From: Polyangium fumosum
Lineage (GTDB): Bacteria; Myxococcota_A; Polyangia; Polyangiales; Polyangiaceae
Direction of reading: 5' to 3'
Length of the DNA stretch: 64,000 nt
Assembly (NCBI RefSeq): GCF_005144585.1
Contig: NZ_SSMQ01000019.1
Location: 62,001-126,000, forward strand
This document shows, one piece after another, positions 7,232 through 46,181 of this stretch (position 1 is its first letter; every line of letters begins with the position of its first letter). A program made the position numbers and the translations under genes. A model generated the notes under the pieces. The model saw nothing but the letters and a program-made list of their open reading frames with translations, did no database searches and was not told the DNA's origin.

Positions 7232-10200
7232 TGTAATTCGAACTCTGGGCGCAGCGGAACCAGTGGGTTTCGTTCTTGTCGCAGTTGCCTTCGAAGTTGG
7301 TGAGGTTGCCCGTGTTGTTGATGCAGTACGCGTCGTCGTCGCCGGAGCGATTGCCGAGCCAGTCGCCGTTGAGCTGTCCACCGGTGCCGTACGTCTGCAG
7401 GATCCGGTAATGCTCGTTGTAGGTCGTGATGTGCCCGCCGAGCGCGGCGCAGACGTTTTGCGCGTTGTTGAAGTTTTGCTGGGAGAAATACGGCGTGACG
7501 CAGATCGTATTGGAGCGCGTGATGCCTCCGAGGTTCGTCGTGGTGGTGACGCCGTAGGCATTGAACGGAGCCGTGCAGTTCCTCGGGCCGGCGCCGATGA
7601 GCTGGAGCCAGGTCGTGGCGCCGGAGTTGTTCGTCTTGCGATACCAGAGGTCCTGGTCGAAGAAGCTGCCGCCGATCTGCATCGCGTAGTTGTTGCCGCC
7701 GTTCGAATGCCGCACGTCGATGAGGTGCTGCCAGCCCGACGCGTTCGGATAATAATTCGACGGCGCGGAGGTCTCGAAGAAGCCGCTCCGCGAGCCCGTC
7801 GCGTCGGCGTTGTCCTTCGTCTCGGTCCGCGTGAGGCCATTGCCCCAGTACACGATCCCGTCGGATCGGATGTTGCCGGTCGCGTGGACCTGCTCGGCCG
7901 GGTTCGCCGTGCCGACGCCGATGGTGCCGGGGAAATGGTTGATGCCCGACGTGCCGCCGTCGATGCGGAGCGCCGCGCCCGTGTCGTTGTGGATGCCGCC
8001 GCGGAACTGCGCCTGCGCCTCGAAGTACACAGTGCCCGAGTTGAAATAGGCGCCGCCGGGGACGTAGATGTACGAGCTCGCGACGATGTACGGGTTCGCC
8101 GCCGTGAACCGGATGTTGCCGCCGCCGTCGGCGCCGGCGGCGATGCGCAGGTAGCCGTTCGCGTGGATGTTCGACGCGGCGAACTGCTCGTAGCCCGTGC
8201 CGGGGTTGTTGTACGTGCGGACGATGCCGTCGCTGCCCATGCCGAGCTGCGAGGCGACGACGCCCGGCCAGTGGAACGCGATGCGCGGCGTCGCGGTCGT
8301 GCGGACCTCGATGGACGCCGTGTCGTAGACCGTGCCCACGCCGCCGGTGACGTCGAACCGGCCGGTGGTGGTCACCGTGGTGGCGTCGTCGGTGATGCTC
8401 GAATTGCCGCCGGTCGTGGCGCCGGTGAATTTGATGACGGTGTTGACCGTGCCATTGATGTTGGCCGAGCCGGCCGGGCCTTGCGGACCCTGCGCGCCTT
8501 GCGCGCCTTGCGGACCTTGCGCGCCTTGCGCGCCGGTGGCGCCGACAGGACCGGCGGGGCCCTGGGCGCCGGTGGCGCCAGCGGTACCTGCGGGGCCTTG
8601 CGGACCCATGGCGCCGGCGGGACCGATCGGGCCCTGGGTACCCTGGGGGCCTTGCGTGCCGGTGGGACCGATGGGGCCTTGGGGACCCACGGCGCCGGTC
8701 GCACCCACGGGACCGATCGGGCCCTGGGTACCCTGGGGGCCTTGCGTGCCGGTGGGACCGATGGGGCCTTGGGGACCCACGGCGCCGGTCGCACCCACGG
8801 GACCCACGGCGCCGGTCGCGCCGACGGGACCCTGGGGACCCACGGCGCCGGTCGCGCCTTGCGGACCGATGGGTCCAACCGCGCCGGTGGGGCCTACAGC
8901 CCCTTGCGGACCCATCGCACCCGTCGGGCCCATGGGTCCGATGCCTCCTTGAGCACCGGTGGCACCCTGTGGACCGATGGGTCCAACCGCGCCGGTGGGG
9001 CCTGCGACCCCTTGCGGACCCATCGCACCCGTCGGGCCCATGGGTCCGATGCCTCCTTGAGCACCGGTGGCACCCTGTGGACCGATGGGTCCAACCGCGC
9101 CGGTGGGGCCTACAGCCCCTTGCGGACCCATCGCACCCGTCGGGCCCATGGGTCCGACGTCTCCCTGAGCACCGGTGGCACCCTGTGGACCGATGGGTCC
9201 AACCGCGCCGGTGGGGCCTGCGACCCCCTGCGGACCCATCGCACCGGTCGGCCCCATGGGTCCGACGTCTCCCTGAGCACCGGTGGCACCCTGTGGACCG
9301 ATGGGTCCAACCGCGCCGGTGGGGCCTGCGACCCCTTGCGGACCCATCGCACCCGTCGGCCCCATGGGTCCGACGTCTCCCTGAGCACCGGTGGCACCCT
9401 GTGGACCGATGGGTCCAACCGCGCCGGTGGGGCCTGCGACCCCTTGCGGACCCATCGCGCCCGTCGGGCCCATCGGACCCACGGCGCCGGTCACGCCGGT
9501 CGCGCCGGTCGCGCCGGCCGGACCCATCGGGCCCATCGGACCCGCCGGACCCATCACGCCCGCCGGCCCCATGGGTCCCATCGGCCCGACCGGACCCGCG
9601 GGACCCATGGGCCCCATCGCCCCCGCCGGACCCACCGCGCCCGCCGCGCCCGTCGGACCCATCGGCCCGACCGGACCCATCACGCCCGTCGCACCCACGG
9701 GACCCGCCGCGCCCTCCGCGCCCGTCGGGCCTTGTGGACCCGTCGGACCCACGAGCCCCGTCGGCGGACCCACCCACTCGCCGTTGTTGTTGATGACCTC
9801 GGTCCCGTTGACCGTGACGCTCGTCGGGTGGATGTCCCCGTTCACGTCGTTCGCCAAGAGCGCATACGGCACGCTCTGGATCGGCGCGCGCGGCTCTAAC
9901 TCCGGATCGTCGGCGATCGTGATCCCCAGGTACCGCACCGACCCGTCGAACAGTTTGTCGAACGGCACGAGCGAGCCGAGCGAGACCGAGTAGAACCCCT
10001 CGTCGAAGTCGACCTTGTGCTCTTCGCTCCAGAGCGGCGTCTGCGCGTTCGGCGCGTCGTAGATCGCGAACCTCACCGTCAGCGAGCCGTGGATCGGCGC
10101 GTCGTCCGCGTCGAAGAGCCGCCCTTGGTTGGTGATCGTCAGGGGAACGGCCGCGTCCGCGCTCGAGGTGGCGCAGAGGCCACCCACCAGAACCGTGGCC

Positions 10201-10232
10201 GCGAGCAGACGGCGAATCGTGCGAAACCTCAT
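7224..10232 (-). CDS. Collagen-like exported protein with shufflon-type and lectin-like C-terminus
   Basis: 1002 residues. Residues 1-27 are a Sec signal peptide. Residues about 28-150 form a domain common in bacterial surface proteins ([29 protein letters not shown]). Residues about 157-592 are uninterrupted Gly-X-Y triplets with many Pro and Thr, so a collagen triple helix is expected. Next come beta-rich tail-fibre-like segments and, near residues 800-880, a region resembling the C-terminal domain of shufflon/PilV and phage fibre proteins ([27 protein letters not shown]). The last 120 residues are Cys-containing (C-x-[25 protein letters not shown]) and look like a C-type-lectin-like fold. 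Start chosen at [10 protein letters not shown]; 22 residues upstream are possible. A trimeric surface fibre or adhesin is inferred. Confidence 0.85.
8625..8804. repeat. Duplicated 90-bp unit inside the collagen-like gene
   Basis: Two nearly identical 90-bp copies start at 8625 and 8715 (anchor GATCGGGCCCTGGGTACC). Each encodes 30 residues, ten Gly-X-Y triplets, so copy-number change keeps the frame. Confidence 0.85.
8860..9473. repeat. Tandem array of 108-bp units inside the collagen-like gene
   Basis: The anchor GGGTCCAACCGCGCC recurs at 8871, 8979, 9087, 9195, 9303 and 9411, exactly 108 bases apart. Each unit encodes 36 residues (12 Gly-X-Y triplets) and copies differ at only a few bases, for example encoding GAQGDV versus GAQGGI. 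The sequence identity argues for recent expansion or gene conversion. Confidence 0.9.
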
Positions 10233-10402
10233 GGGCGTCTCGTCCTCGCGGAGGCCGCCGGGGAAAAACCCGCGCGAGATCCCCCTCGACATCGTCACGC
10301 TACGCGTGTCCAGGGAGTCGCGTCAATGGTGTCGCGTGATGCCGCGCGCGCCTGAGATCGACGCCCCGCGTCAGCATGCCGCCGGCGGTTTGGCGTCCGC
10401 GG

Positions 10403-11794
10403 TCAGCCCACCACCAGGCTCATCCCATCCGCGAGCTTTTCGAGCGCCTCGCGCCTCGTCATGGTGACGCGCGCGATGGCGCGGGCGAGCGCGGCGATCG
10501 GCGGGCAAGCCTGCGTGTTCAGCCAATCTCGCGCCGGGACCCGCCCGCGGATCCACGGCCGCGTGGATTCGAGCCGCTCCATCAGCGCGCGCTCGCCGAA
10601 CGCTCGGTAAAGGAACGCGGTATACGGGGAGGCGCCGAGGTCGAAGCTCGAAGGGCTCGCGCGCCCCTCTTCGAGCAGGCGGAGCAGGACGGGATCGAGG
10701 TCCGAGGAGGAATCCGGCGCCGGCTGCAGGAAGAGCTCGGCCCGCACGGGGTTCGTGTTGTTCTCGTCCGGAATGCCGCCGAGGAAAAGCTCGATGGGGG
10801 CGTCGCCGCCCGTGGCGCAGGCGAACGCCTCGATGAGCGCGATCGTATAAAGCTTCGCCCGCAGGTATCGCACGGCGAGCGAGATGTTGCGGCGGGCCTG
10901 GGCGATCCTCCGGGCGTGGACCTCCGGCGAGGGTTCGCCGCGGAACGCGTGGAAGACGCGCTCGGCGGCGAGGGTCGAGAGGAAGCCCTCCATGCGCTGC
11001 AAGGCGAGCCGATACTCCCCGTTTCGATAGACGTTCGGCATGTGGAGCGCGGGGTTGTTCTCGGGCAGGAGCCGCCAGGTATTGTCGAGGAACCGCGCCG
11101 GATCGGCCTCGGCGAAGTTCTCGACGTCGCGGTTCGCGAGCCGCACCGCCGCGCGCACCGCGTCTTCGCAGGCATTCGCGTCGAGCCCGGGGATCCCGAG
11201 GTCCCGCAGGCGCCCGGTCAGGCGATCGAACGTGGCCGTCTCGCGGAACGGCATCGTCGCCTCGATGGCGGCGGCGATCTCGGCGAGGTGGCGCGGCGGC
11301 AGGAAGGGCGCGAGGCACTTGGCCGCGACGAACGCGCTCGCGAGCTCGTTCAGGCCGGTCAGCGGCGTCAGCTCGTCGCCGGGCTCGCGGCCGAAGATCC
11401 GGGCGACGAGCGTCGCGGCCGGGTCTTCCAGCACGCCGAGCCCGATCCGATACCCCGTCCCATCCACGGGCGTGAGCAGCGGGCGGAGCAGATCGCTGAT
11501 CATCCGAGGAAATCCCTGATCCACCTGCACGTACACGACATCGTGGAAGATGCCCGCGAGGGTCTCGATCGGGCCCATCCCCTCCGTGAGGGTCAGCACG
11601 TGCGCGTGGCTGTGGAATTCGCGGGACTGCCCCGACAGGGCCTCATGGACGAGGAACGTGGGGCGCTCGAGCTCCAGCGCGCTCGGGCGACCGCCGAGCC
11701 GCGTGAGTGCCTCGTCGAACCGGACGAGGAGCCGGTGGATCGTGGGGAGCGCGGCGTCCACGGACGGCAGAGGGAGCATGCCGTCCCATAACAC
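10403..11794 (-). CDS. HD-like predicted metal-dependent hydrolase, function unknown
   Basis: 463 residues, no signal peptide. Near the N-terminus a His-rich pattern (EFHSHAHV, His61/63/65, then IFHDVVY, His84-Asp85) resembles the metal-binding core of HD-domain phosphohydrolases, which place a helix-borne His before an HD dyad. The rest is mostly alpha-helical, with long helices around residues 180-300 and no other recognisable motif. Starts at 11794 and 11779 are both possible; AGGGA stands about nine bases before the first. Its 5' end is 27 bases from the stop of the delta-60 gene, which is on the same strand upstream, so co-transcription is possible. Substrate unknown. Confidence 0.75.
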   Translation of the reverse strand: MLWDGMLPLPSVDAALPTIHRLLVRFDEALTRLGGRPSALELERPTFLVHEALSGQSREFHSHAHVLTLTEGMGPIETLAGIFHDVVYVQVDQGFPRMISDLLRPLLTPVDGTGYRIGLGVLEDPAATLVARIFGREPGDELTPLTGLNELASAFVAAKCLAPFLPPRHLAEIAAAIEATMPFRETATFDRLTGRLRDLGIPGLDANACEDAVRAAVRLANRDVENFAEADPARFLDNTWRLLPENNPALHMPNVYRNGEYRLALQRMEGFLSTLAAERVFHAFRGEPSPEVHARRIAQARRNISLAVRYLRAKLYTIALIEAFACATGGDAPIELFLGGIPDENNTNPVRAELFLQPAPDSSSDLDPVLLRLLEEGRASPSSFDLGASPYTAFLYRAFGERALMERLESTRPWIRGRVPARDWLNTQACPPIAALARAIARVTMTRREALEKLADGMSLVVG

Positions 11795-11821
11795 ACGTGT
11801 CCCTGCGCGTGGACCGTTTCT

Positions 11822-13183
11822 TTACATCCACATGCGAACGACCACTCCATACGTGCCCGGCCCCGGGCTCATCCCCACATCGGCGCCGCCGAGGAGGACC
11901 CGATGGTCCGCGTGGAGCCGGACGGTATGCAGGACCCCGTTCTCTCCCAGGTAAACCCGCAGGATTCCGTGCACCCCGAACGTGGTGTCGACCTTCCCGT
12001 CGCACGTGTAGCGCACGAGGACGGGCTCGACGATTGTTTCGATTTCCGGGGAATTGCCGACGACGAGGATACCTCCCCCGGGCAATACCACCATGTCCTC
12101 GGCTCGCATGTTGCCCGCGTGGCGTGGCCCTTCCGCGCGGCCCTCGGAGCCGAACGAGAGGTCGGGGCTGCCGTCCGCGAGGAAGCGGCGGACCACGAAA
12201 GCTGGGTCGTCCCCGCCGGTGTCGCCGGCCACGACCATGGTGCCGTCGGCAGAAGGCGCGACGGACACCGCGCGCTCGTGGTTCGTGTCACGGCCGGCTT
12301 CGATCACGCCATCGCCGCCGAACGAGGGATCGAGCACGCCGTCCGCCGTCAGGCGAAGCACGACCATGATGGTTCCCCCCTGGTCGAGGTCCGCGGTGCC
12401 GGCCACGAGAATGCGGCCGCTCGCGTCGAGGGCGACCGATTGGGCGTGCGCGGAGACGCCCACGGGGACGGTCACGTATCCCTTCGGTGCAGCGAACGTG
12501 GTATCGAGCGCGCCGGTCCGGGTGGCGCGGGCAATGAGAATCTCCTTGCTGCCGCGCCCACCGACCACGAGGATCTTGTCGTCCGGAAGAACCAGGCCAT
12601 CCGTGACGGACTCCTCGTCGCCGAGGTCGATCAGGCTTTTCCCGTCGGTGCCGAACCCGGAGCCCCCGATCGACCCGTCCGGCTCGAAACGCACGAGCGC
12701 GATGTTCGCGGATTCGCCGTGGAACTTGTCACGGTGGCCCATCGCGACGATGCCGCCGTCGCTCTGGTGCCCGACGGCGACGGCATAGGCGGCGTCGGCG
12801 GTCGACGACGCGAACCCCGTGCCGGCCGTGCCATTCGTGCCGAACGTAGGATCGAGCCTCCCGGACGGGGTGAACCGGGTCAGGCGAAAACGAACGCCCC
12901 CGAGCCCGCCCGCGCCCCAGCCTGCCGCGAGGATTCGATCCCCCGCGACATCCAGCCCGAAATACCCGCCGTCATCGTCGGCCCCAAAGCTCACGCGGGC
13001 CATTCCGTTCTCGCCGAACGTATCGTCGAGCCTGCCCGCACGAAGGCTGGTCGCGGGGCACGAGGCAACGGCCTCGCTTGCGAGGGGAGACGCGTGGTTT
13101 TCGGATGGATCCGCGCCGCATCCGGCAAGGGTTGCGAGGGACGAGACGACCAGACCGGAAATCGCTCTGCGGGACCACGTCAT
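11822..13183 (-). CDS. Delta-60-repeat lipoprotein
   Basis: 453 residues. Lipobox LAGC places Cys22 at the mature N-terminus. The body contains about seven delta-60 repeats, each near 50-60 residues with the signature (L/V/P)DxxFGxxG: LDDTFGENG, LDPTFGTNG, LDTTF, LDPSFGGDG, PDLSFGSEG and VDTTFGVHG are readable. Such repeats build a beta-propeller-like exported protein. An upstream in-frame ATG at 13231 would give a 38-residue signal and has GGAGG only two bases away, so the shorter start is preferred. It belongs to a run of same-strand surface-protein genes from 17.2 to 10.4 kb. Function unknown. Confidence 0.85.
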   Translation of the reverse strand: MTWSRRAISGLVVSSLATLAGCGADPSENHASPLASEAVASCPATSLRAGRLDDTFGENGMARVSFGADDDGGYFGLDVAGDRILAAGWGAGGLGGVRFRLTRFTPSGRLDPTFGTNGTAGTGFASSTADAAYAVAVGHQSDGGIVAMGHRDKFHGESANIALVRFEPDGSIGGSGFGTDGKSLIDLGDEESVTDGLVLPDDKILVVGGRGSKEILIARATRTGALDTTFAAPKGYVTVPVGVSAHAQSVALDASGRILVAGTADLDQGGTIMVVLRLTADGVLDPSFGGDGVIEAGRDTNHERAVSVAPSADGTMVVAGDTGGDDPAFVVRRFLADGSPDLSFGSEGRAEGPRHAGNMRAEDMVVLPGGGILVVGNSPEIETIVEPVLVRYTCDGKVDTTFGVHGILRVYLGENGVLHTVRLHADHRVLLGGADVGMSPGPGTYGVVVRMWM

Positions 13184-40762: not shown

Positions 40763-42114
40763 ACGAGGATGTCGCCGAAGGCTTCGGACGTCTGGCCGCC
40801 GTTCCAGCCGAAGCTCGGCGTCTCCAGGCCGACCCCGCGCAGCATGGTGACGTGGGCCTTGCTGTAATTGCCGCCGGGATCGCGGACGTGGACGTTGCGG
40901 CGGATCTTCCCATGGGCGCCGCCCGCGAGGACGCAGGGCATTTCGGCGACGCTGTGCTGATAGCCCTCGCCATATTCGGAGAGGCCAAAGACGAGCGCGC
41001 GATCGAGCAGCGTGCCGCCCGTCGGCTCAACGACGGCCTGCAGCCGGCCGAGGAACGCCGCAAAGGCCTGCATTTGATAGAGGATACCCGCGCGGGCGTG
41101 CTCCCAGGCGCCCTCGTGGACGGTGGTATGAAAATCGTTGGGCACGCCGAGGTTCCCGAAGACGTGGGTCGTCGCGGGGGAGCTCAGCATGAACGAGAAG
41201 ACCCGCGTCATGTTGCACGCGAGCGCCGAGGCGAGCAGCGAGCCCATGATGTCGGTCTTCGCGACGAGCTCGTCGTTCGGCGCGGGTTTGCCCGGGGGCG
41301 CGCACGACTCGCCCGAGAATTCGAGGCGGTTCTTGACGGTGTGGAGGTGTTCGAGGTGCGCCTCGATGCGCTGCTTGTCCGCCGCGCCGACGCGGCCCGA
41401 GAGGCTCTTCGCGTCCTCCAGGACCGCGTCGAGCAGGAGCGCCCGGCGCTTCATGCCGGCCGTGTCCGCCGCGACGCCGAACAGGAGATCGTAAAGCTGC
41501 CCCGGATCGAGGATCGGCGGGTTCAGGTCGTCCGGGCCATTGTACGAGATCGCGTTCCAGTGTCCGTAATCGTGGAAGCGCGCGGTGCTCGCGCCGAGGA
41601 CGAGGGAGCGGAAGCGCGGGATTTCCGGGCCGTAGAAATTCGGGTGTTTCGCGACGTACTGGTCGAGCGTCGGGCGCAGCGCGGTGAGCGTGTGCGAGGG
41701 GTGATCGAATCCCTCGGGGCGAATGCGATCGCCGGTCATCGAGACCATGAAGCCACGCATGTGCCCGTCACTCTGGCCCGCCGGGAGATCCGGCACTTCG
41801 GTGTGCGGGGTCAAGCCCGTCACGAGGCTCGGTTGGTAGGGCGCGAGCGGCGCGAGCAGCTCGCTCGGCGTATAGTCCTTGCCGGTCGTGGCGGGCGTCC
41901 AGAGATCGGGGTGGCCGGCCTGGGGCGCGCCGTGGCCATCGTGCCAGGGCAAACCGCCGCCCCAGAAAAAGATGCCGAAGATCGGCCCGGTGGACGCGGC
42001 CTCGGCGCCGCGGGCACCGAGCATTGCTTCGAGCGTGGGCAAAGCGAGGGCGACGGCCGTGCCGCCCACGGCGCCCCGGAGGAAGGTTCGTCGGGACAGG
42101 GGCGTGGTCTTCAC
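40759..42114 (-). CDS. DUF1552-family protein with Tat signal
   Basis: 451 residues from GTG 42114, with GAGGAG six bases upstream. A canonical twin-arginine motif SRRTFLRG (Arg8-Arg9) indicates folded export. The body matches DUF1552: the opening IFGIFFWGGGLPWHDG, SDGHMRGF, and the end-part VFGLSEYGEGYQHS. The family belongs to the sulfatase/alkaline-phosphatase-like group, often paired with DUF1592/PSD-type cytochrome proteins in Planctomycetes and myxobacteria; its reaction is unknown. It overlaps both neighbours by four bases (GTGA), so stoichiometric synthesis of the three proteins is likely. Confidence 0.9.
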   Translation of the reverse strand: MKTTPLSRRTFLRGAVGGTAVALALPTLEAMLGARGAEAASTGPIFGIFFWGGGLPWHDGHGAPQAGHPDLWTPATTGKDYTPSELLAPLAPYQPSLVTGLTPHTEVPDLPAGQSDGHMRGFMVSMTGDRIRPEGFDHPSHTLTALRPTLDQYVAKHPNFYGPEIPRFRSLVLGASTARFHDYGHWNAISYNGPDDLNPPILDPGQLYDLLFGVAADTAGMKRRALLLDAVLEDAKSLSGRVGAADKQRIEAHLEHLHTVKNRLEFSGESCAPPGKPAPNDELVAKTDIMGSLLASALACNMTRVFSFMLSSPATTHVFGNLGVPNDFHTTVHEGAWEHARAGILYQMQAFAAFLGRLQAVVEPTGGTLLDRALVFGLSEYGEGYQHSVAEMPCVLAGGAHGKIRRNVHVRDPGGNYSKAHVTMLRGVGLETPSFGWNGGQTSEAFGDILV

Positions 42115-43778
42115 GGGCTCTCCTCTTCGCCGATGTAACGGAAGGCGTCGTGCGTGACGAGCTCGATCAAGAGGGTGCGGAAATCGAAGGAGGCGCCGGC
42201 GAAGCGCGAGGCGAGGTCTTCGAGCGCGAGCCGCTCGCCCTTCGTCTCGACGCGCCCCTGCGCGTGGCGATAAAGCTGCTGGACCATGCAGCGGCCGACG
42301 CGCGGCTCGGTTTCGAGAACCGTGGCGAGATCGCGCGCATTCGCGAGGGGTTTGCCGTCGAGGTCGCCGGATGAATCGATGGGCACGTCGTCCGCGAAGA
42401 CGGTGCGGTAATACCCCGACGAGTCGAAATGCTCGAAGAGGAAGCCGGGCGAGTCCATGAAGTTGTGGCACGCGGCGCAGGCGGGGTTCGTGCGGTGCGC
42501 CTCCATTTGCTCGCGCACCGTTTTGGGGTCGCCCATCGGCGGATCGAGGGTCGTGTCGACGCCCGGGGGCGGGGCCGGGACCTCCAGGCAAAGGACACGC
42601 TCGCGGACGTATTTGCCGCGCGCCGTGGGTGAGGTGCGGGTCTCGTGGGCATTCATGGTGAGGAACGCGCCGAGCGTGAGCAGGCCAGCGCGCGGGCCGT
42701 CCGCGGGCAGCTCCACCGGGACGAACGTGTCCGTCGTCGCGCCGGGCGCCTCGATGCCATACAGCGCCGCGAGGTCCGCATTCACGAACGTCTTGCGGGT
42801 GCTGAAGATGCTGCGCGCGTCGCCGCGGCTCCCGAAGACGACGTCGTCGACGAGGAGCTCGACCTCGCGGCGCATGGCCTCCTTGAGGGTGGGCGTGAAA
42901 TACGGATACGCGGCCGGGTCGCGCTGGACGCCGTCGAGGCGGCCGAGGTCGAGGTATTGCCGGAAAAACGCCTGCATGGCCGAGCGCGCGCGCGGGTCGT
43001 CGAGCAGGCGCTCGGCCGCCGCGGCGACGCCCTCGGGTTTGTCGAGGTCACCTTGTTCGGCGGCGTCGAGGAGCGCGTCGTCCGGGCCCTGGTTCCAGAG
43101 GAGGAACGAGAGGCGCGTGGCCATTTCGTATCCCGTGAGCTTGCGCCGGCCGGGGGCCGCGTCGTCGGGGACGCCGACCTCGGCCCGATAAAGGAAATGA
43201 GGGGACTGGAGCACGCCCGAGACGGCGAGGCGCAGGCCCTCCCACGCGCTCGGATCCGCGAGGGTCTGCGCGATTCCGACCCAGCGAGTGACCTCCTCGT
43301 CCGTGAGCGGGCGGCGGAAGACGCGCCGGCCGAAGCGACGCAGGAAGCTCTCGACGCAGGCGTCGCCGGGCGCGGCGGGCTCGCAGCCGACGAAGGCCGC
43401 GCGGCGGGCCGGATCGGCGAACGCGTAACGCGTGATGGCGTCAGCGGACTCCTCGTACTGCTGCACGCCGAACTCGGAGAGCGTCGTGCTCGAAGCGCCG
43501 ATGTTGTAGAAGAGGAATGGCTTCGTGTCGTCTTCGAGCGGCGCCTTGGGCATGCTCGCGCCGAAGAGCTCGGCGAGCGAGCTCTGGTACTGCGCAGCCG
43601 TGAGGCGCGGGAGCGCGGGCGCGGCGAGGACGAGCGACTCCGCTTCGGTCGTGTCTTCGTCCGCGTCGCCGATGACGCCGACGCATGCGGTGAGCGAAGC
43701 GCCGAAGACGGCGATTGCGGCTGAAAACCCGAGCCACCGCGCTCGGGAGCGCCCAGGATGCGGACGTCTTTGGACCAT
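42111..43778 (-). CDS. DUF1587/1595/1592/1588/1585 lipoprotein with c-type heme motif
   Basis: 555 residues. Signal with LTAC (Cys32). In order: DUF1587-like (LPRLTAAQYQSSLAELFG), DUF1595 (FLRRFGRRVFRRPLTDEE), DUF1592 (LQSPHFLYRAEVG, ATRLSFLLWNQGPDD), DUF1588 (ETRTSPTARGKYVRERVLC) and DUF1585 at the end (DLASRFAGASFDFRTLL). A CAACH motif (Cys434, Cys437, His438) can bind one heme c. The family is exported and always seen near DUF1552; a redox role in breaking down or binding an extracellular polymer has been suggested but not shown. First gene of the operon; the start at 43778 is preceded by TAAGG. Confidence 0.9.
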   Translation of the reverse strand: MVQRRPHPGRSRARWLGFSAAIAVFGASLTACVGVIGDADEDTTEAESLVLAAPALPRLTAAQYQSSLAELFGASMPKAPLEDDTKPFLFYNIGASSTTLSEFGVQQYEESADAITRYAFADPARRAAFVGCEPAAPGDACVESFLRRFGRRVFRRPLTDEEVTRWVGIAQTLADPSAWEGLRLAVSGVLQSPHFLYRAEVGVPDDAAPGRRKLTGYEMATRLSFLLWNQGPDDALLDAAEQGDLDKPEGVAAAAERLLDDPRARSAMQAFFRQYLDLGRLDGVQRDPAAYPYFTPTLKEAMRREVELLVDDVVFGSRGDARSIFSTRKTFVNADLAALYGIEAPGATTDTFVPVELPADGPRAGLLTLGAFLTMNAHETRTSPTARGKYVRERVLCLEVPAPPPGVDTTLDPPMGDPKTVREQMEAHRTNPACAACHNFMDSPGFLFEHFDSSGYYRTVFADDVPIDSSGDLDGKPLANARDLATVLETEPRVGRCMVQQLYRHAQGRVETKGERLALEDLASRFAGASFDFRTLLIELVTHDAFRYIGEEESP

Positions 43779-43935
43779 GGCCTTACCCACAAGGTACAGC
43801 GGAGCCGAGGGGCATGGAAGAGACAAGGGAGGAACCTTGTCCACGCTTTCCGGAGGCGCGCGGACACGTCGGTGGAAGACGGCACGCGAAGCCGGAGGAC
43901 CTCCCGCGAAGCGTGGATTCGCGTATCGTGCGCGG

Positions 43936-45645
43936 GTGGCTTCTGTCCCCGTGACGTTTTTCTACCGGCCGGAGCGACCCGCGGCGTTCGCGTCGATCTG
44001 CGGGGAATGGTCGGCGTTTCATCCGACGCCGATGGCGCGGCGCGAGGACGGGTCGTTCGAGGCGACGATCGAGGCGGCGATCGGGGTGCACGAGTACAAG
44101 CTGCACGTGGAAGGCGCGCGCTGGGAGCTCGACCCGGCAAACCCGCGGACGCGGGCGCGGGGCGGCCTGCGGAACAACGTGCTCGTGGTGGGCGGCGCGG
44201 ACGAGCCGATCCTGCACGCGCCGGTGCGCCCCTTCGTGGGCGTGGTGGAGGACGGTCGGCTCTGCATTCGCGCGGCGCTGCGTCGCGGGCACGGGAGCGG
44301 CCTCGTCGTGCGGTGGGACGAGGGCGCAGGGGGGCGCGAGGAGGCCATGCAGGTCGCGGCGGAGGAGGACGAGCACGTCGTCTTCGAGGCGCGGCTGCCA
44401 GCGTCGGCGCGGCGCGTCTCGTACGTGTTTCGATTGGAATCGGGGCGGCTCGTCGGGCGCGCGGGCGGGGCGGGGCAATGGTTCACGATTCCGCGGCCGG
44501 AGGCGCCCAAAAGCGCGGGGCGGGGTGAGGGCGCGGCGGCGATTTCGATCGAGGGGCCATCGGCGTCGGAGACGTCCGGCGACGCGTTTCGCGCGGGGCG
44601 CGTGGTCGCGCCCTTGCCCGTGCGGCTTTACGTGACCGTGACCGAGCGGTGCAACCTGCGCTGCGCCCATTGCATCACGGACGCGCCGGAGAAGACGCGG
44701 AGCGGGCGCGCACGCACGATGCAGCGGTGGCTGCTCGACGCGCTGCGGGAGCCGTTCGCGGCCGCCGAATACGTGGGCTTCGTGCACGGCGGCGAGGCGC
44801 TCGTGGCGCCGATCTTCCCGGAGGTGCTCGCGGCGATCCAGAGAGGCCGCGCGGGTCGTCCGGGCCGCACGAACGTGCATTTGCTGTCGAATGGAATGGC
44901 GCTCGACGAGGCGCGGTTCGATGCGCTCTGTGATCTCGGGCTGACGAGCCTTTCCCTTTCGCTCGACGGCGCGACGGCGGGGACCAACGACGGGCTCCGG
45001 ATCGGCGGGCGGTTCGCGACCCTCGTGAAGAACATCGAGGGCATGGTCCGGCGGCGCGCGGCGCGTGGGGTCGACGTGCGGATCGGGATCTCGACGGTCG
45101 TGACGGCCTCGAACGTGGACGAATTGCCCGCGCTCGGGAGGCTCGTGGCTTCGCTCGGGGTCGATTGGTTGAAGGTCGAGGAGGTTTTCCCGTGCACGAC
45201 GCGGGCGCAGGCCGAATGGATCGATCCGCGGGGGGAGCGGGTGTTCCGTGGGGTCCGTGCGCTCGGGGCGATCCTCGCGCCTGCGGGCGTCGTGCTCGTG
45301 GATCACCTCGATCCCCGCGGCGCCTGCCCTTGCGTTGCCGGCGAAGATCCCGCGTTTCGGGTGTTTCGCGCGGCCGACGATTTCGCCAACCGCACGCGTT
45401 TTCTGACGTGTCGCATGGAATGGGAGCAGGCGTGCATCGATCCGGATGGCAGCGTGCATCCCGTGGCGTACGAGGCGCCGGTGATCGGCTCGCTCGCGTC
45501 GTCGTCGCTCGTTTCCCTCTGGAACGGAGAGGGGATGCAGAGCCTGCGTCGTGCCGCGCTTTCCAGGACGTCGGCGTCGATCCGGCAGGGCTGCCCCGAG
45601 GCGGCTTGCGTCCCGACGCCGCGGCGTGCCACGATCGCGCCATGA
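43936..45645 (+). CDS. Radical SAM/SPASM-like enzyme fused to amylase-type N-terminal modules
   Basis: 569 residues from GTG 43936 (no clear ribosome site; the start is uncertain). Residues about 3-65 read like an AMPK/CBM48 early-set domain (FASICGEWSAFHPTPM, FEATIEAAIGVHEYKLHV). Residues about 95-185 resemble the N-terminal domain of neopullulanase/maltogenic amylases (CIRAALRRGHG, VSYVFRLESG, then WFTIPRPEAP). The radical SAM cluster motif follows, CNLRCAHC (Cys239, 243, 246), with a TIM-barrel core including FVHGGEAL and LSLSLDGAT. The C-terminal part has Cys492, Cys500, Cys553 and Cys558 in a SPASM-like arrangement, ending GCPEAAC, though the usual Cys after DGSVHP is Val. It should perform SAM-radical chemistry on a peptide or glycan. 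Coupled to a CAP lipoprotein (ATGA). Confidence 0.85.
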   Translation: MASVPVTFFYRPERPAAFASICGEWSAFHPTPMARREDGSFEATIEAAIGVHEYKLHVEGARWELDPANPRTRARGGLRNNVLVVGGADEPILHAPVRPFVGVVEDGRLCIRAALRRGHGSGLVVRWDEGAGGREEAMQVAAEEDEHVVFEARLPASARRVSYVFRLESGRLVGRAGGAGQWFTIPRPEAPKSAGRGEGAAAISIEGPSASETSGDAFRAGRVVAPLPVRLYVTVTERCNLRCAHCITDAPEKTRSGRARTMQRWLLDALREPFAAAEYVGFVHGGEALVAPIFPEVLAAIQRGRAGRPGRTNVHLLSNGMALDEARFDALCDLGLTSLSLSLDGATAGTNDGLRIGGRFATLVKNIEGMVRRRAARGVDVRIGISTVVTASNVDELPALGRLVASLGVDWLKVEEVFPCTTRAQAEWIDPRGERVFRGVRALGAILAPAGVVLVDHLDPRGACPCVAGEDPAFRVFRAADDFANRTRFLTCRMEWEQACIDPDGSVHPVAYEAPVIGSLASSSLVSLWNGEGMQSLRRAALSRTSASIRQGCPEAACVPTPRRATIAP

Positions 45646-46181
45646 AACGCATTTCACCTTTCTATGGGCTCGTGCTCGTTCCTTTCCTCCTGACCGCCGC
45701 GGGCTGCTCCGACGACGAGGGAGACGGCAACACGAATGCAGGCGAGCCAGCCTCGATGCAAGGGATCACGGAGGCCCACAACGCGGCGCGCGCGTCCGTC
45801 GATCCGCCGCCCGCAGAGCCGCTGCCGCCCCTCGTCTGGTCGTCCGAGATCGCCGCCGTCGCCCAGGCCTACGCGGAGAAATGCGTATGGGAGCACAGCA
45901 GCAACGACTACGGCGAGAACCTCTACGCGAGCTCCAATGGCTCGACCGCGGAGAAGGTCGTCTCGAACTGGGTCTCCGAGAAGGCCGATTACATCTATTC
46001 GTCGAACGAGTGTTCGGCCGTCTGCGGCCATTACACCCAGGTCGTTTGGGCGAAAACGACGAGGCTCGGCTGCGGCATGGCGAAGTGCAGCACAGGCTCG
46101 CCGCTCGGCGGCGGGGATTGGGAATTCTGGGTTTGCAACTACGATCCGCCCGGGAACTTCGTCGGGCAGAAGCCTTATTGA
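45642..46181 (+). CDS. CAP-domain (SCP/PR-1) lipoprotein
   Basis: 179 residues. Lipobox TAAGC gives Cys22, then a short Asp/Asn linker. The CAP domain is complete: ITEAHNAAR (His46), AQAYAEKC, WEHSSNDYGENLY, GHYTQVVWAKTTRLGCG and WVCNYDPPGNFVGQKPY. CAP proteins are secreted; some bind lipids or carbohydrates, and most bacterial ones have no defined activity. Its ATG lies in the stop of the radical SAM gene, so both proteins are made together. It might be a substrate of that enzyme or work on the same surface target (inference). It abuts the stop of the CBS gene directly. Confidence 0.92.
   Translation: MKRISPFYGLVLVPFLLTAAGCSDDEGDGNTNAGEPASMQGITEAHNAARASVDPPPAEPLPPLVWSSEIAAVAQAYAEKCVWEHSSNDYGENLYASSNGSTAEKVVSNWVSEKADYIYSSNECSAVCGHYTQVVWAKTTRLGCGMAKCSTGSPLGGGDWEFWVCNYDPPGNFVGQKPY

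Follow-up and report, generated by a model that had tools for sequence, protein, structure and literature searches.

The window analysed here is a 64,000-nucleotide stretch of Polyangium fumosum (NCBI RefSeq assembly GCF_005144585.1, contig NZ_SSMQ01000019.1, positions 62,001 to 126,000 of the forward strand) from a genome of 13 Mb. It holds a gene for a radical S-adenosylmethionine (SAM) protein that begins with two carbohydrate-binding modules (CBMs), one of the CBM48 type and one CBM34-like, and ends in a SPASM-type tail (Table 1). An initial annotation had reported this open reading frame, its CNLRCAHC motif (Cys239, Cys243 and Cys246) and the FTIPRPEAP end of the second module, and all three were recovered as given. 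It had also described a radical SAM barrel standing where the amylase barrel should begin. Our data indicate that this is not a primary design and that the protein is a derivative of a CBM48-CBM34-GH13-radical SAM fusion, from which the glycoside hydrolase family 13 (GH13) barrel was lost in Polyangium. We regard the architecture and its origin from a fusion as almost certain.

Table 1. The radical SAM gene, its parts and the gene coupled to it, in coordinates of the window
Feature	Position	Strand	Evidence
CBM48-CBM34-radical SAM/SPASM protein, 569 aa, GTG start	43936..45645	+	Open frame, conserved in six Polyangium genomes (own and five others)
CBM48/AMPK-type domain, residues 3-86	43942..44193	+	Pfam AMPK1_CBM; AMPK beta-1 chains; model; K55, W63 and N80 kept; dN/dS 0.23
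CBM34-like domain, residues 90-186	44203..44493	+	Pfam Alpha-amylase_N below cut-off; alignment of a fusion with the TVAII N-domain; dN/dS 0.26
Linker, residues 189-212, at the site of the relatives' GH13 barrel and C-domain (about 500 residues)	44500..44571	+	Alignment with fusions; pLDDT
Radical SAM barrel, residues 227-457	44614..45306	+	Pfam; fold matches to SuiB, SkfB and BlsE
CX3CX2C motif (C239, C243, C246), predicted to ligate the SAM-cleaving 4Fe-4S cluster	44650..44673	+	Cys in 43/43 family rows
SPASM-type tail; C464, C466, C492 and C553 likely ligate one auxiliary Fe-S cluster	45307..45603	+	Pfam SPASM; Cys pattern
CAP-domain protein, lipobox-like N-terminus	45642..46181	+	Pfam CAP, E 2.9e-23; start overlaps the radical SAM stop (ATGA)

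The whole protein is held by five further Polyangium genomes at 82-95% identity, with residues 2-567 or 2-569 kept. In its AlphaFold2 model (predicted local distance difference test, pLDDT, 90.1; predicted template modelling score, pTM, 0.87), beta strands form two groups over residues 3-186 or so, pLDDT falls below 50 at residues 193-210, in a short disordered linker, and the radical SAM barrel follows. The ratio of nonsynonymous to synonymous substitution rates (dN/dS) across the six Polyangium orthologues is 0.24 for the radical SAM part and near-neutral, 0.90, for the linker stretch (residues 189-226). Because the values of the CBM48 domain (0.23) and of the CBM34-like domain (0.26) are close to that of the radical SAM part, both CBM domains appear to be still in use. 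A true start near residue 200, which the initial annotation had named as fatal to its reading, is excluded by the conservation of the N-terminal residues in the five other genomes, by the N-terminal dN/dS, by the model and by the limits of the frame, which in two of the genomes, G003 and G005, opens just 20 codons upstream of residue 1.

The first domain was matched by Pfam AMPK1_CBM over residues 19-86 when the N-terminal part was searched alone (E 2e-6, 28.3 bits against a cut-off of 26.8) and slightly below the cut-off in the whole protein (E 1e-5, 26.1 bits). The nearest solved sequences, matching residues 21-89, were the glycogen-binding domains of AMP-activated protein kinase (AMPK) beta-1 chains (best E 5.4e-5, 1z0n). 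The profile match and the early-set fold place the domain among the CBM48/AMPK glycogen-binding domains. Lys55 and Trp63 are kept in 46 of 47 family rows and Asn80 in 45 (a count that includes L048 and L056, a duplicate contig), and we take their equivalents to contact glycogen in AMPK beta. With most glycogen-contact positions kept in the family, the domain would be expected to bind glucan.

The second domain matched Pfam Alpha-amylase_N (PF02903, CBM34-type) over residues 90-169 below the cut-off, with E 0.0012 for the N-terminal part and 0.007 for the full-length protein, and by profile it falls outside CBM34 (19.5 bits against 23). We call it CBM34-like mainly because a related fusion aligns from residue 91 on, end to end, with TVAII and maltogenic amylase, N-domain included. 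The model of this fusion, at locus L060 (1019 aa; pLDDT 90.9, pTM 0.89), was superposed on TVAII-type amylases (residues 91-659 on residues 3-585 of 1jf5; Z 46.5, 3.1 Å, 547 residues), which identifies its second domain as a CBM34-type N-domain and its barrel as neopullulanase-like. Structural equivalence was thus seen on the homologous domain of the fusion and not on the window model; the VIA-align fold comparison of the latter listed matches mainly to residues 211-561, so that the CBM domains lay outside its reach. The order of an AMPK/CBM48-like and then a CBM34-like domain, as first annotated, agrees with the Pfam matches, the AMPK beta-1 matches and the beta domains of the AlphaFold2 model.

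The radical SAM barrel and SPASM-like tail, which had been placed after the CBM pair, were found there by Pfam, by the model and by fold matches. Pfam Radical_SAM covers residues 234-369 (E 2.3e-11) and SPASM covers residues 492-540 (E 3.5e-6). The cysteine rows and the fold also agree with a partial TIM barrel that opens with a CX3CX2C motif, and the protein belongs to the radical SAM superfamily. The best fold matches were SuiB (Z 22.3), SkfB (22.2), BlsE (21.8), anSME (21.2), DesII (21.1) and viperin (20.5). The cysteines were counted in an alignment of 43 rows (42 distinct, L048 and L056 being the same contig; L053, L090, L091 and one weak L081 frame were dropped). Cys466 and Cys492 occur in 43/43 rows and Cys553 in 41/43. 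Cys464 occurs in all 24 rows of clade A, the clade of the window protein (see below), and these rows are without the C-terminal Cys present in all 19 rows of clades B and C. The fourth auxiliary ligand would accordingly be Cys464 in clade A and the C-terminal Cys in clades B and C. A SPASM domain with two auxiliary clusters has a seven-Cys pattern, which the family does not show: each clade has four conserved tail cysteines, and a fifth, Cys500, is found in 29/43 rows. The four conserved cysteines fit one fully Cys-ligated auxiliary cluster, and a single auxiliary Fe-S cluster is predicted. Twitch-type enzymes are described as having a shortened C-terminal domain that holds a single auxiliary Fe-S cluster, and BtrN as having a four-Cys auxiliary cluster that goes with two-electron oxidation (PMC9012708). 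Because the four tail cysteines fit one auxiliary cluster as in BtrN, an oxidation is expected of the window enzyme, and by this analogy its reaction is probably a two-electron oxidation.

The best NCBIfam match of the radical SAM domain was TIGR04311 rSAM_Geo_metal, a putative metalloenzyme maturase. Membership was rejected, with 88.7 bits for the window protein (98.2 and 99.6 bits in two relatives) falling far under the curated cut-off of 400 and about 195 of 423 positions matching. A RiPP maturase system would have an RRE domain or a short precursor peptide beside the gene; no RRE domain appeared among the Pfam matches listed or the best 25 of 59 NCBIfam matches, and the clustering of open reading frames covered those of at least 70 aa.

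Seven proteins from other genera of the same family and order contain both ends of the window protein in a single frame of 993-1481 aa, with about 1.5 kb separating them. The intervening stretch encodes a GH13 catalytic domain (PF00128, E 3.4e-29 to 1.8e-39 across these fusions). Elsewhere in the Myxococcota the family is mostly one protein of about 1000 aa with an intact neopullulanase-type GH13, flanked by the CBM pair on one side and the radical SAM domain on the other. A scan of 84,980 species genomes returned 40 loci (numbered with L) whose titles name Myxococcota groups or Deltaproteobacteria; it used two short patterns, and divergent members, also outside the Myxococcota, may be missed. 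The remaining genome searches were confined to Myxococcota (genomes numbered with G), and the 40-locus count overlaps with the 377-genome count given below, several named loci being from the same assemblies as G genomes. Most loci are full fusions, three Polyangium loci have the CBMs and the radical SAM domain without the barrel, and a few are clipped by contig ends. The initial annotation had suggested a search for the same arrangement in other myxobacteria. It exists in the five further Polyangium genomes, whereas elsewhere the two halves are mostly joined through a GH13 barrel.

Both active sites are conserved. In 25 aligned fusions (alignment A6, 25 of the 28 listed; L063, L090 and L091 were left out) neither the GH13 catalytic residues nor the three radical SAM cysteines vary, and among all GH13 rows the Arg, Asp and Glu are kept in 41/42 and the His-Asp in 40/42, the rest being gaps. 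These residues and the PF00128 matches, in the seven fusions and in L107 (E 9.8e-29), make the relatives and the free Polyangium enzyme described below GH13 members. The window protein has no Pfam Alpha-amylase match, its barrel is absent and it is not a GH13 enzyme. In clade C (L077, L083, L084 and L088) separate radical SAM and CBM-GH13 genes lie on the same strand within about 1 kb. Some fusions were irregular. In L090, a Sandaracinus metagenome-assembled genome, the radical SAM domain extends across two frames (7796-10327 and 9676-10995, +), which may reflect a frameshift or a sequencing error. The GH13 profile matched L064, L066 and L091 in at least two pieces, as did the radical SAM profile in L091, which suggests inserts or divergent stretches.

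The genome of the window also has a free GH13 gene (C88) at another locus, with an N-terminus like that of the window protein (47% over residues 21-161). On the GH13 tree, C88 and its Polyangium orthologues fall inside fusion clade B (19 rows, support 100/99). On the radical SAM tree the window protein falls in clade A (23 rows, 93/98), next to the fusion of G036 (82/88), and the swap between Cys464 and the C-terminal Cys agrees with this placement. The N-terminal tree puts the Polyangium radical SAM rows outside clade B, otherwise in an unresolved fork. L048 was omitted from all three trees, and L053, L090, L091 and the weak L081 frame also from the radical SAM tree. Approximately unbiased (AU) tests reject three alternatives: grouping of the radical SAM rows from Polyangium with clade B (p 8.9e-5), grouping of its free GH13 with clade A (p 0.0081), and a tree in which all fusions form a clade without the free GH13 (p 0.0065). 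In view of the trees and AU tests, the simplest history is one of two paralogous fusions with opposite losses in Polyangium, where the A copy lost the amylase barrel and the B copy lost the radical SAM domain. G027 retains two fusions, one of each clade. An ancestral barrel-less architecture was considered and rejected, since both the GH13 tree and the radical SAM tree place the Polyangium rows within fused clades and the AU tests agree.

Most loci outside Polyangium also hold a gene for a partner protein. In clade A, 13 of the 18 loci intact upstream have a same-strand frame of 335-434 aa that lies no more than about 1 kb ahead of the fusion's first recognisable domain and whose product has a lipobox-like N-terminus. 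The partner of L065 is divergent, and L059, L061, L063 and L069 have none in the locus. The C-terminal part of the clade A partner is a CBM21 domain by profile (PPP1R3B, E 7.5e-10), and in single partners Pfam CBM_21 matched above the cut-off in L038 (E 2e-12) and L060 (1e-7). This part has a WDNNxGxNY motif, in agreement with WxNxGxNYx(I/L), a motif conserved across CBM21 according to PMC9287172. Clade B loci have a different lipoprotein-like gene, which in 7 of 11 lies on the opposite strand and whose product ends in a similar WDNxxGxxNY. From N-termini judged by eye, these partners would be exported and lipidated. A partner is present in 27 of the 33 non-Polyangium loci intact upstream (14 of clade A, 10 of clade B and 3 of clade C) and missing in L059, L061, L063, L069, L083 and L092. 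Five loci clipped upstream by a contig end (L058, L076, L085, L086 and L089) are outside this count; over all 38 non-Polyangium loci (37 from the scan and L038) the figure is 28. The clade C partner protein had no PDB match and no match in 377 genomes, which shows little as that set held no known positive genome. The A2 and A3 profiles aligned with 0.4% probability.

Of 377 Myxococcota genomes, 16 have the radical SAM family, 9 the A partner and 7 the B partner. The genomes with an A or a B partner are exactly the 16 radical SAM genomes, with no overlap between A and B and no exception at the thresholds used (E 1e-35 and 1e-20). Kinship inflates this count, as Polyangium supplies five of the 16 genomes and 10 of 233 genera are represented among them. 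Two genomes, G300 and G353, carry the A partner and the radical SAM gene on different contigs. We consider it very likely that the radical SAM enzyme forms a functional unit with the GH13 enzyme and the lipoprotein.

Several further genes were seen at the partner loci. Immediately downstream of its fusion, L060 has another copy of the clade A partner (11037-11897, +), which lacks the lipobox-like N-terminus and is possibly a cytoplasmic version. Long B-type partners have an extra C-terminal domain (L079 6111-7907, -, residues 383-587) that also matches proteins of G006 and G016, where the search with the window protein gave no strong match. In clade C, a DcrB-domain protein (PF08786, E 7.2e-8) is encoded between the radical SAM and GH13 genes of L088 (11422-11952, +), preceded by a conserved protein of 137-152 aa (A3) without a Pfam match, and a PHP-domain gene lies on the opposite strand upstream of the radical SAM gene (L077 7387-8565, -; L084 8997-9914, -).

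In Polyangium the neighbourhood is rewired. The overlap of the radical SAM stop with the CAP start is kept in 6/6 genomes. The CAP protein matches only itself within its own genome and had no match near non-Polyangium members in the loci examined. A search of the six Polyangium genomes for the clade A partner gave one weak match (G002, E 2.4e-4) and nothing else. The free GH13 gene adjoins a B-type partner gene in all six, and because these two are kept side by side the alpha-glucan system looks complete in Polyangium.

Each part of the system resembles known proteins. The second domain and the relatives' barrel and C-domain are like those of neopullulanase, maltogenic amylase and cyclomaltodextrinase of GH13 (TVAII, 1sma, 1j0h), with catalytic residues intact, but the fusion adds a CBM48-type domain in front and a radical SAM/SPASM part behind, and the window protein lacks the barrel. 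The radical SAM part shares its barrel, CX3CX2C motif and C-terminal domain with SPASM/Twitch enzymes acting on peptides and proteins (SuiB, SkfB, anSME) or on sugars and cyclitols (BlsE, DesII, BtrN; Z 15.7 to 22.3). It differs from them in its low identity (14-20%), its four auxiliary cysteines with a moved fourth ligand and its N-terminal CBM48-CBM34 pair. The C-terminal domain of the clade A partner, motif included, is like CBM21 of the PPP1R3 glycogen-targeting subunits, but the partner is bacterial, has a lipobox-like N-terminus and goes with a radical SAM-GH13 enzyme. The Sus systems for starch have the starch-binding lipoproteins SusE and SusF and the neopullulanase SusA. The pairing of a glucan-binding lipoprotein with a neopullulanase is common to both, whereas the GH13 here is probably cytoplasmic and fused to a radical SAM enzyme. 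In agreement with the initial annotation, which knew of no characterised counterpart, no radical SAM-GH13 or radical SAM-CBM (CBM48, CBM34) protein was described among the matches listed from 5.39 million open-access papers, a body that leaves out most subscription journals and preprints. Passages on "radical SAM" in PMC1249566, PMC7996765 and PMC8841776 concern other matters.

We propose a system of three parts, in which a neopullulanase-type GH13 goes with a radical SAM enzyme that has a single auxiliary Fe-S cluster and with a glucan-binding lipoprotein that is exported. GH13 and radical SAM enzyme are one polypeptide in most relatives found and separate proteins in Polyangium, the barrel-less half and the free GH13. 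The CBM48-CBM34 pair would hold the enzyme on glycogen or maltodextrin. The radical SAM barrel would cleave SAM and abstract a hydrogen from a glucosyl unit, and the auxiliary cluster would accept the second electron to give an oxidised (keto or aldehyde) sugar. The GH13 may then trim or transfer the oxidised product, and the lipoprotein may bind glucan outside the cytoplasm. Glucan is the common factor because the GH13 site is intact, the CBMs were kept after barrel loss and the clade A partner has a glycogen-type binding domain. The closeness of the two genes in the clade C loci also speaks for the proposal, as do the exact co-occurrence with the lipoprotein and the presence among the fold matches of the sugar-acting BlsE and DesII, at nearly the same Z as the peptide-acting SuiB and SkfB. 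For SAM-radical chemistry toward glycogen or another alpha-glucan, as originally suggested, the glucan theme is supported, because the family is mostly fused to an intact GH13, the CBM48 contact positions are kept and the clade A partner has a CBM21. The part of that suggestion in which the radical acts on the glucan and not on the partner protein did not gain the same support, and nothing was found for a glycopeptide target. Taken as a whole, the mechanism, in which the window gene supplies a myxobacterial alpha-glucan system with its radical SAM component and this enzyme oxidises glucan, has in our view somewhat less than an even chance of being right. It is a tentative proposal that a SAM-derived radical oxidises an alpha-glucan, polymer or oligomer, in concert with the GH13 and a surface lipoprotein that binds the product; oxidation of the glucan itself, and the identity of the product, are conjecture.

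Several observations weigh against this proposal. The fold comparison has no preference among peptide-, sugar- and nucleotide-acting enzymes. We know of no activity for any family member. CBM48 position 28, a Trp in 34/47 rows, is Phe in all Polyangium radical SAM rows, and the clade C radical SAM protein has no CBM of its own. Pfam CBM_21 fell below the cut-off in two of the four clade A partners scanned (L064, 1.7e-6; L091, 0.0025). Five clade B partners scanned had no Pfam match, their profile had no good PDB match (best E 0.078, a YceI-like protein), and the A and B partner profiles align weakly (probability 28%, E 6e-4). In none of the seven Polyangium loci (six genomes) is a partner lipoprotein near the radical SAM gene, which is coupled instead to the CAP lipoprotein-like gene. 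Finally, the obligate pairing with a neighbouring exported protein may also be read as that of an enzyme with its protein substrate.

Such an enzyme could be a maturase of the partner lipoprotein that installs an oxidation or a cross-link in the cytoplasm before export, with the CBMs and the CBM21 joining enzyme and substrate on glycogen. Anaerobic sulfatase-maturating enzymes modify sulfatases in the cytoplasm before export. We hold this reading to be possible but doubtful. It ranks close behind glucan oxidation because exact pairing with one exported protein is a common sign of an enzyme and its protein substrate. The exact co-occurrence, the adjacency in clades A and B, the presence of SuiB, SkfB and anSME among the best fold matches, a weak match to TIGR04133 'rSAM_w_lipo' (58 bits against a cut-off of 425) and the coupling to another lipoprotein-like gene in Polyangium all favour it, but it leaves unexplained the intact GH13 fusion in most members found and the retention of the CBMs after barrel loss. 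The A and B lipoprotein profiles, moreover, match weakly and their alignments show no common peptide segment by eye, and the clade C candidate has no visible signal sequence. It is rather unlikely that in Polyangium the enzyme modifies another small molecule or the coupled CAP lipoprotein, with the CBMs merely placing it on glycogen, for example for storage or regulation. The rewired locus, the clade A lipoprotein not found and the ATGA coupling in 6/6 genomes would fit that role, but GH13 and B-type lipoprotein genes are side by side in the same six genomes and the CAP protein is unmatched near non-Polyangium members in the loci examined. Least of all do we favour the Polyangium CBM pair as a functionless remnant of the lost amylase, a very improbable reading. 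It would suit the missing barrel and the near-neutral linker, but the CBM domains are as constrained as the radical SAM part, their three CBM48 contact positions are kept and they are folded in the model.

Known radical SAM targets are peptides, proteins, nucleotides, cofactors and small sugars, and to our knowledge there is no polysaccharide-directed radical SAM system. Here a radical SAM enzyme is tied to alpha-glucan machinery by fusion, gene neighbourhood and exact co-occurrence, which makes its substrate and product directly testable. If glucan is the substrate, this would be a new way of modifying a storage or surface polysaccharide; if the lipoprotein is the substrate, it would be a new class of protein maturation. 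The window protein has a real chance of representing something categorically new. Polyangium also shows clearly, as a natural case, how two paralogous fusions can lose complementary halves.

Directly upstream of the window gene, on the opposite strand (42114-43802, -), is a gene for a protein with DUF1592, DUF1588, DUF1595, DUF1585 and DUF1587 domains (PSD/PSCyt in Pfam).

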